A stretch of 64,000 nucleotides of DNA, taken from contig JACFMQ010000002.1 in NCBI GenBank assembly GCA_019455325.1, positions 62,001-126,000 on the forward strand, written 5' to 3'. A model generated the notes under the pieces. The model had not been told where the DNA came from. It was given only the letters and a program-made list of their open reading frames with translations, and did no database searches. This document shows positions 35,272-49,971 of the stretch, in pieces. Numbering within the stretch: the first letter of the stretch is position 1; each line of letters starts with the position of its first letter. Position numbers and translations under genes: made by a program. This DNA comes from Rhodocyclaceae bacterium. GTDB taxonomy: Bacteria > Pseudomonadota > Gammaproteobacteria > Burkholderiales > Rhodocyclaceae.

Positions 35272-35284
35272 ATCGTTAACGTCC

Positions 35285-35752
35285 ACCGCAGAGGCGCAGA
35301 GACGCAGAGGAACGCAGAGAAAACCGGAAGATCAGATTCCGTTTGCGATGCGCTTCACTCCGCTCTTCAGAGCCTCGACATTGAAATTGATCAGTAATCC
35401 AAGTTTCTTGTTCAAAAGCTTCAAATAAGTCAGCAACTGAGCCGAGTGGACGGGCAACAGACCGTCGACCGCCTTAATCTCGACAACGAGGTCGCCTTCC
35501 ACCAGGAGGTCGAGCCGGTACGCATTCTCGACCTCGATATCTCGATAACGCAACGGAATGCGAACTTCGTTCTCGATGCGAATACCGCGGTACGTCGACT
35601 CTGCGGCAAGGCAATCCCGATAGCAGCTTTCCAGCAACACCGGCCCGAGCTGTCGATGCACTTCGATCACCGCACCAATCACCTCTCCACTCAATACAGA
35701 GAAAGATTCTGCCGTTCTCTGCGTCACCTCTGCGCCTCTGCGTCTCTGCGGT
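35285..35752 (-). mobile_element. Inverted-repeat-bounded GxxExxY unit
   Basis: About 470 bases bounded by 26-base inverted repeats (35285-35310 and 35727-35752) that differ at two positions, each extended inward by a further ACGCAGAGAA. The arms consist of reiterated NCGCAGAG octamers. The unit carries one gene (35332-35727) and separates ribF from ileS. The same terminal sequence recurs at 49836-49939 as a gene-less hairpin. It resembles an autonomous unit with a MITE-like derivative. No target-site duplication could be defined. Confidence 0.7.
35332..35727 (-). CDS. GxxExxY family protein (PDDEXK-like)
   Basis: A 131-residue protein of the GxxExxY family. The core is SGEVIGAVIEVHRQLGPVLL followed by ESCYRDCLAAE, then IENEVRIPLRYRDIEVENAYRLDLLVEGDLVVEIKAV, where the Asp and E-x-K (residues around D-LLVEGDLVVEIKA) resemble a PD-(D/E)xK nuclease core. 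The start GTG at 35727 overlaps the ribF stop as GTGA, so its translation looks coupled to ribF. Both ends lie in inverted repeats. The biochemical function is unknown; a role in moving or maintaining the repeats is an inference. Confidence 0.8.
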   Translation of the reverse strand: MTQRTAESFSVLSGEVIGAVIEVHRQLGPVLLESCYRDCLAAESTYRGIRIENEVRIPLRYRDIEVENAYRLDLLVEGDLVVEIKAVDGLLPVHSAQLLTYLKLLNKKLGLLINFNVEALKSGVKRIANGI

Positions 35753-36668
35753 GGAAGTATTCGAGCGTCGCATCGACGTCGCGCGCGATCTGCGCCTTCA
35801 GTTCGTCGAAGCCGGAAAACTTCATCTCGTCGCGGATCTTGTGCAGGAAGCGGACGGTCAGGTGCGCGCCGTAGATGTCGGCGGCGAAGTCGAGCAGGTG
35901 CACTTCGAGGATCGGTCGCGGCACGGCGTTCGCCGTCGGCCGGTAGCCGAGGTTGGCGACGCCGGGCAGCGGCTTGCCGCCGAGCCCGGTCACCTCGACC
36001 GCGAAGACGCCGAGCAGCGGCGGCCGGTCGTGCTTCATGCGGATGTTGGCCGTGGCGTAGCCGAGCTGCCGCCCGACCTTCTCGCCATGCACGACGCGGC
36101 CGTCGATCACGTAGGGCCGGCCGAGCAGTTCGGCGGCATGCTCGATGTCGCCGCGCCACAGCGCGTCGCGCACGGCCGAGCTGGAGACGCGGACGCCGCC
36201 TGCGAGCACCGACTGCATGGCCTCGACGCGAAAGCCGAAGGACTCGCCGGCCCGCTGCAGCAGCGCGAAGTCGCCGGCGCGCCGGGCGCCGAAGCGGAAA
36301 TCGTCGCCGATGATCAGGTGCCGCACGCGCAGCGCTTTGACCAGCACGTCCTCGACGAACTGGTCGGCGGTGAGGCTGGCGAAGGCTTTGTCGAAGCGGC
36401 AGACGAAGGCCAGCTCGACGCCGTCCTCGGCGATCAGCTCCAGCTTCTCGCGCAGCGTCGAGAGCCGCGTCGGCGCCGATTCCGGCGCGAAGAACTCGCG
36501 CGGATGCGGCTCGAAGGTGAGCACCGCCGGCGGCAGCCCGGCTTCGCCCGCCACCGCGCACAGGCGCGCGAGCAGCGCGCGATGGCCGAGGTGCACGCCG
36601 TCGAAGTTGCCGATGGTGAGCACGGTCGCGCTGGGCGCGGGTTGCGAAATGCCGCGGAAGACGAGCAT
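35724..36668 (-). CDS. ribF: Bifunctional riboflavin kinase/FAD synthetase, C-terminus supplied by a repeat
   Basis: A 314-residue bifunctional enzyme making FMN and FAD. The FAD synthetase N-terminus has IGNFDGVHLGH and FEPHPREFF; the kinase domain has RPYVIDGRVVHGEKVGRQLGYATANI and LEVHLLDFAADIYG. The last residues, after TLEYF, read HRRDAEAQR and are encoded entirely by the inverted repeat, which also provides the TGA stop. The native C-terminus was therefore probably shortened or changed by insertion, though the enzyme core is intact. It is upstream of ileS. Confidence 0.95.
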   Translation of the reverse strand: MLVFRGISQPAPSATVLTIGNFDGVHLGHRALLARLCAVAGEAGLPPAVLTFEPHPREFFAPESAPTRLSTLREKLELIAEDGVELAFVCRFDKAFASLTADQFVEDVLVKALRVRHLIIGDDFRFGARRAGDFALLQRAGESFGFRVEAMQSVLAGGVRVSSSAVRDALWRGDIEHAAELLGRPYVIDGRVVHGEKVGRQLGYATANIRMKHDRPPLLGVFAVEVTGLGGKPLPGVANLGYRPTANAVPRPILEVHLLDFAADIYGAHLTVRFLHKIRDEMKFSGFDELKAQIARDVDATLEYFHRRDAEAQR

Positions 36669-49823: not shown

Positions 49824-49835
49824 CGATCGACACCT

Positions 49836-49939
49836 ACCGCAGAGACGCAGAGGCGCAGAGATTCGCAGAGAAAAGCAAAGCGGGGCATTGCGTTTTCGCT
49901 TTTCTCTGCGCCCCCTCTGCGCCTCTGCGTCTCTGCGGT
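49836..49939. repeat. 104-base palindromic element with the GxxExxY-unit terminal repeat
   Basis: A perfect 25-base inverted repeat (49836-49860 and 49915-49939) and an inner perfect 13-base repeat (49864-49876 and 49898-49910) fold into one long hairpin with a short internal loop. Each arm is built of reiterated CGCAGAG units (four per arm). The outer arm equals the terminal repeat bounding the GxxExxY unit at 35.3-35.75 kb. It lies 13 bases after the PilM-PilN-like gene, inside the operon. Confidence 0.92.
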
Positions 49940-49971
49940 GGACGTTCCCCTCTTCAACCGGGGACTTCAGG

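Follow-up and report, generated by a model that had tools for sequence, protein, structure and literature searches.

REP/REPIN-RAYT systems, in which a genome holds many short intergenic palindromes and one nuclease or transposase gene, are arranged like the elements described here, which are built around a gene of the GxxExxY family. REP copy number is higher where the RAYT gene is present (PMC8049555). We regard REP/RAYT as the nearest functional analogue, but with an unrelated enzyme (PMC8049555, PMC8266576). The elements also resemble MITEs and their parent insertion sequences in having terminal inverted repeats and in occurring as one gene-bearing and many gene-less forms, and they resemble homing endonuclease genes in carrying a small, selfish nuclease gene.

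The gene-bearing element and its protein

The element was found in a stretch of 64,000 nucleotides from a Rhodocyclaceae genome (G000), hereafter called the window, where the gene order is ileS, GxxExxY (minus strand), ribF. Its features are as follows.

35272..35772, no strand: whole inserted gene-bearing element with its junctions; 41-53 bp instead in four same-genus genomes
35279..35310, plus strand: left inverted arm with outer end AACGTCCACC and reiterated CGCAGAG; an extra unit at 35313-35319
35332..35727, minus strand: GxxExxY gene, PD-(D/E)XK nuclease family; a GTG at 35727 is taken as the putative start, the frame being open further upstream
35717..35758, minus strand: right inverted arm, four CGCAGAG units; shares bases with the 3′ end of ribF and with the putative start of the GxxExxY gene
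49835..49940, no strand: hairpin of this family that lacks the gene; each arm has four units

A preliminary description of this DNA had claimed a GxxExxY gene between inverted CGCAGAG repeats, and this was borne out. The arms (35279-35310 and 35727-35758) are 32 nt long and 91% complementary, four CGCAGAG units stand at 35287-35319 (+) and four at 35717-35750 (−), and the protein belongs to the GxxExxY family with 132.8 bits against TIGR04256 (cut-off 35) and 133.3 bits against PF13366 (cut-off 22). This gene-bearing copy is about 460-480 bp long. The proposed placement between ribF and ileS was right as to the junction, but on one side the insertion reaches into the ribF 3′ end and replaces the native last codons and stop. 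As a result of this replacement, RibF of G000 (window 35724-36668, −) has a C-terminus of array-encoded residues. The gene-less hairpin with the same termini, said to lie 14 kb away, was confirmed at 49835-49940. The window has four occurrences of the terminal pattern CACCGCAGAGNCGCAGAG, allowing 1 mismatch, all belonging to the gene element or this hairpin, and 100 shuffles gave 0; the bare CGCAGAG heptamer is at chance level there (25 versus 25.4 expected). Folded as single-stranded DNA, the hairpin reaches −55.3 kcal/mol (z = −11.7), and none of 200 shuffles was as good.

The D...ExK active site of the PD-(D/E)XK superfamily is present in the window protein. Among 98 GxxExxY proteins (the 103 usable loci described below minus four with in-frame stops and one short protein; the genome_contigs part is the best 80 of 584), 97 have the complete set of D, E and K, and the E and Y of the name-giving motif and the active-site D and K are invariant. 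By family and intact site, the GxxExxY protein is a predicted PD-(D/E)XK nuclease. The four genes with an in-frame stop (4/103; L058, L078, L099, L104) belong to otherwise typical elements. The AlphaFold model of the window protein has a mean pLDDT of 95, and Foldseek against the PDB placed 4ic1 (SSO0001), which we take to be Cas4, at the top (E = 0.015, probability 1.00, TM 0.58 by query length), followed by lambda exonuclease relatives and other nucleases. No PDB match had E ≤ 0.001, and a search by sequence up to E = 1 turned up no relative of solved structure. On the model, the nuclease appears structurally nearest to Cas4 and lambda exonuclease.

Gene-less palindromes and empty sites

In the 4.46-Mb genome of G000, CGCAGAGACGCAGAG occurs 41 times forward and 39 times reverse and the backward-read pattern 0 times, which rules out that the repeat is confined to two places. 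A profile search found one PF13366 gene in G000, that of the window. Forty regions outside the window were taken, covering all CGCAGAGACGCAGAG sites there, and these regions and the window contain, between them, 47 array clusters of at least four units, namely the gene element and 46 gene-less copies, in agreement with the pairing of an autonomous form and derivatives proposed earlier. Further copies in G000 lie on contigs C7, C16, C19 and C31. In the gene-less copies, these arrays close into hairpins of roughly 80-130 bp, and among the G000 copies read no gene other than GxxExxY was seen between the arms.

The two ends of the G000 elements are slightly unlike, AACACCTACCGCAGAG and AACGTCCACCGCAGAG. 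Of the 47 copies, 32 have CTACC with CCACC and 14 have CCACC twice; CTACC (GGTAG on the other strand) is present at 33 of 94 G000 ends and absent from the ends read by eye in the relatives G012, G056 and G071. Near-identical subfamilies at separate G000 sites point to recent multiplication. One copy (L129), with CGCAGAG in one arm and a CGCAAAG-like unit in the other, possibly represents a word caught in transition; it was excluded from the end and flank tests, giving n = 46. An outer sequence, GGGCRATCGCATGA, was observed at L133, L134, L138, L139, L153, L157 and L158, and all 9 of its occurrences in 239 kb, a sample centred on the copies, are within 62 bp of a copy, which suggests either an extended version of the element or a preferred target.

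Empty sites were found in relatives both for the gene element, in four genomes, and for hairpins. The ileS-ribF junction, aligned on both sides in G001, G002, G005 and G006, measures 41-53 bp compared with about 501 bp in G000; in G003 and G004 it is uncovered among the matches listed. Thirteen hairpins had flanks reaching the query and six of these sites could be aligned with relatives. None of the six has an array in the relatives: of the 18 genome-sites inspected by eye, 12 are short junctions between genes, and the other 6 contain a different gene or sequence that is unrelated. The aligned hairpin copies sit at gene-gene junctions, and the same neighbour genes adjoin in relatives without the hairpin. 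Insertion and multiplication of the palindromes are read from the sequence comparison. Exact element ends are unreadable because the relatives are about 85-95% identical at the flanks. Target-site duplication was undetected in the 46 G000 copies, where the longest word shared by the flanks has a mean length of 3.5-3.8 versus 3.8-3.9 for shuffled pairings; at one site of the set (L142), GTTCA is common to both flanks.

These positions could also mean that the palindromes serve the host at gene junctions, in mRNA stability, termination or gene coupling, with GxxExxY as their nuclease and mobility as an incidental matter. A crude coding test placed 44 of the 46 copies outside coding-like ORFs, and the location of aligned copies between genes is favourable as well. 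Nevertheless, we regard a host function of this kind as very improbable, because the relatives' sites are empty although the same genes adjoin, and because the repeated word turns over quickly, with 39 changes on the 75 tips of the tree described below.

Heptamer arrays around GxxExxY genes and their matching words

GxxExxY loci were collected from three sources: an HMM search of 121 relatives, with a match in 24 genomes and 29 loci kept (L012-L040) besides that of the window; genome_contigs, from which the best 80 of 584 were confirmed; and viral contigs, with 3 loci. Exclusion of four weak or partial loci (L031-L034) left 109, and removal of six with a flank below 60 bases left 103 usable loci. 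By eye, L032 has arms, L034 has one side, and L031 and L033 have none. A locus was counted as positive when inverted chains of one heptamer stood on both sides with a score of at least 1.7, and equal-size windows shifted by 1000-1300 bases within the same loci served as controls. Inverted arrays were found at 82 of the 103 loci (the genome_contigs part being the best 80 of 584) compared with 1 of 373 control windows, so that the expectation of such repeats around GxxExxY genes elsewhere held. At thresholds of 1.4, 2.0, 2.4 and 2.7, the numbers were 85 versus 18, 77 versus 1, 61 versus 0 and 51 versus 0. Positive loci made up 22/24 in relatives, 59/76 in genome_contigs (best 80 of 584) and 1/3 in viral contigs, and 17 of the 21 loci missing the criterion are among the 76 usable genome_contigs loci. 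A simpler arm-match test on 76 genome_contigs loci gave a median score of 19.5 for a locus's own arms versus 8 for arms of other loci; the own pairing exceeded all 20 cross pairings in 39/76, and direct orientation was also above the 99% cross level in 10/76. Array-bearing loci occur in Betaproteobacteria, Planctomycetota, Verrucomicrobiota, Chloroflexota and Bacteroidota, and also in cyanobacteria, Acidobacteria, Parachlamydiales and Methanosarcinales.

Some genomes hold hundreds of array matches, and a gene might happen to fall between two palindromes in such a genome; that of L061 (G127), a 3-Mb betaproteobacterial one, has 373 CACAGAG array matches, the highest number of the 48 genomes counted. 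Chance flanking is hardly credible, however, and is ruled out by the figure of 1 in 373 same-size windows against 82 of 103 genes in the same loci. Plasmids and phages were also considered as vehicles and rejected: with one protein query, 6 out of 72,556 plasmid records matched, as against none among 50,697 phage records, and of the 3 viral-contig loci one has arrays. Elements recur beside trpC or trpG, with differing words, in 8/26 relatives' loci (L014, L015, L016, L018, L023, L024, L030, L037) and 3/80 genome_contigs loci (L045, L077, L115; best 80 of 584), counts which were made by simple motif patterns and are probably too low.

The claim that CGCAGAG is the repeat holds in G000, but the word differs from genome to genome. 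The main units are CACAGAG, CGCAGAG, CACGGAG, CGCAAAG, CACGAAG, CACAAAG, CGCGGAG, CGCCAAG, CACCAAG, CGCAGAT and CACGAAT, with rarer forms. On a tree of the 75 proteins with a clear unit (weakly resolved, with 42 of 71 inner branches open and 4 starred), the word label requires 39 changes compared with 50.1 for shuffled labels, and 0 of 200 shuffles were as low. This result indicates that gene and word travel together, yet that the word often turns over.

Among the relatives, CGCAGAG array matches are concentrated in G000 (80), G056 (52) and G018 (8), and those of CACCAAG in G012 (100), G071 (35), G038 (24) and G070 (9), with 1-3 in 29 further genomes; each of these seven genomes has 0 matches for the other of the two words. 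A PF13366 gene is present in all 7 relatives with at least 8 array matches, a cut-off set after the counts were seen, versus 17 of 114 others (Fisher, P = 5.5e-6). In G000, G056, G018, G012 and G038, the gene is flanked on either side by an arm of the matching word; the G070 gene has a mixed array, and that of G071 has one visible arm at a contig end. Any CGCAGAG match is found in 15 genomes, 10 with a PF13366 gene; G002, G019, G047, G052 and G109 have 1-5 matches each and no PF13366 match. In G002, of the same genus and 88% complete, the PF13366 gene was not found, and its hairpins (L196-L199; compare L023 and L025) show a second end type, AACCGCTTTCAACGCAGAG.

Across phyla, three words were counted in 48 of the 80 genome_contigs genomes (best 80 of 584), picked for clear units. 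The gene has one of the three words in 29 genomes, 4 of which show none of those words beyond two matches. In 23 of the 25 informative genomes the commonest counted word is that of the gene (permutation mean 10.3, maximum 19 in 10,000); another word is on top in the genomes of L086 and L073. Median matches in cognate versus other genomes were 27 versus 2.5 for CACAGAG (p = 0.0028), 11 versus 1 for CGCAGAG (p = 0.039) and 56 versus 0 for CACGGAG (p = 4e-5), where the gene element itself adds a few matches that may decide the smallest cases, several words occur side by side in many genomes, and a few genomes give high values for the backward-read control (for example G163 and G165 for CGCAGAG, G135 for CACGGAG). 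No residue was found that demonstrably tracks the word: for unit position 2, the best p was 0.0024, above the 5% permutation threshold of 0.0006; alignment residue 6 gave p = 0.0005 with another unit position, a value read without its threshold, and the tree-aware test comprised 3 pairs only.

Gene, arrays and dispersed palindromes are almost certainly associated. Since the word changes quickly while arms, gene and genome-wide derivatives stay matched, nuclease and word may co-evolve, and we hold it to be nearly an even chance that they do so within a mobile class that spans bacteria as well as archaea, whose sole dedicated mobility enzyme would be a single nuclease, some 120 residues long, that recognises lineage-specific heptamer arrays. 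The suggestion that the protein recognises or spreads the palindromes stands as far as the association of the gene with dispersed palindromes of the same word; recognition and spread themselves we infer.

A proposed mechanism and its relation to known systems

That the GxxExxY nuclease mobilises the palindromes is, from the sequence evidence, a reading we consider about evenly balanced between true and false. The element would consist of a single gene for a PD-(D/E)XK nuclease, enclosed by inverted arrays whose heptamer is specific to the lineage. The nuclease would bind the reiterated heptamers, most likely on a palindrome extruded as a cruciform or as a lagging-strand hairpin, and make its cut at the base of the palindrome or close to it; host repair or replication would then join the DNA so released or copied into gene junctions, without target duplication. 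By working in cis and in trans on the arrays of its own element, the nuclease would let gene-less palindromes multiply where the cognate gene is present. What is read from the sequences is the arrays, the word common to gene and dispersed palindromes, the empty sites, the lack of detectable duplication and the near-invariant catalytic residues; from these we infer the cutting, the driving of spread and the manner of joining, and host repair or replication as the integration route is our guess. To our knowledge, no strand-joining activity is known for a lone PD-(D/E)XK nuclease. Counting against a mobilising nuclease are the 5 of 15 CGCAGAG-bearing relatives without PF13366, the 2 word mismatches in 25, the 4 of 29 genomes lacking a signal of the three words, the 21 of 103 loci missing the array criterion, the 10 of 76 loci whose arms match in direct orientation too, and the failure to find a residue that tracks the word.

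Alternatively, the palindromes may multiply or persist by replication template switching, GxxExxY being a cruciform-processing tolerance nuclease which rides on the palindrome and does not move it. Strong hairpins, the missing target duplication and an active site kept in 97/98 proteins would all suit such a process, but tolerance alone leaves unexplained both the gene's place inside the palindrome (82/103 loci) and the same word in gene arms and dispersed copies, and we consider it rather unlikely.

PF01797 (Y1/RAYT), the sole transposase family scanned, has matches in 68 of the 121 relatives, including G018 and G056, and none in G000, G012, G038, G070 and G071, five of the seven high-copy relatives, indicating that the elements can do without RAYT-type enzymes. 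On the same ground, a driving role of REP/RAYT is not supported in G000. The chosen start codon lies 0-20 nt past the last array unit in 33 of 70 loci examined (0-5 nt in 14, 6-20 nt in 19; for example L041, L052, L046 and L062), and the purine-rich unit may therefore double as a ribosome-binding site or operator. Such closeness of the arrays upstream of the gene would fit a transposase of another family that mobilises the palindromes in trans, with GxxExxY as a passenger or as a repressor binding the arrays beside its own start codon. We judge this unlikely, given the five genomes in which PF01797 was not found, the conserved catalytic residues, and GxxExxY as the only gene seen inside the arms of the G000 copies.

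Our best reading of the sequences is that the GxxExxY elements would form a widespread class of mobile palindrome whose sole protein is a small nuclease, and the class is apparently undescribed. In the open-access literature (subscription papers and preprints lying outside it), no description of GxxExxY, TIGR04256, PF13366 or twelve array sequences as such an element was found. The mentions of GxxExxY and PF13366 read there are incidental, a search for CGCAGAG with inverted repeat gave none related by title among the matches listed, and one for PDDEXK_3 with inverted repeats gave nothing. If true, the mobilising role would supply a substrate and a role for a widespread protein family named only after its motif, would account for a large body of palindromic repeats that have so far lacked an explanation in environmental genomes, and would provide numerous naturally paired nucleases and recognition words for studying the evolution of specificity. 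It would also mean a type of mobile element based on a PD-(D/E)XK nuclease, and not on DDE, HUH or recombinase enzymes.

The likeness to REP/RAYT extends to target duplication, which was unseen for the GxxExxY elements here. The RAYT enzyme (TnpA_REP) is of the HUH/Y1 family, however, and unrelated to the PD-(D/E)XK protein, and whereas REP has a short stem with a GTAG tag, the GxxExxY arms are reiterated heptamers, with GGTAG at some of the G000 ends, and the gene lies within the palindrome. Unlike MITEs and insertion sequences, the elements have no detected target-site duplication, and no transposase gene was seen inside the G000 copies read. Nucleases of the Cas4 and lambda-exonuclease type are the best structural matches of the protein. 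Cas4 has cysteines for an Fe-S cluster, but no invariant or nearly invariant cysteine was found in 17 aligned GxxExxY proteins, and the locus here is not CRISPR. Finally, homing endonucleases occupy one conserved site, in contrast to the 47 array clusters, mostly gene-less, which lie at different places in G000.
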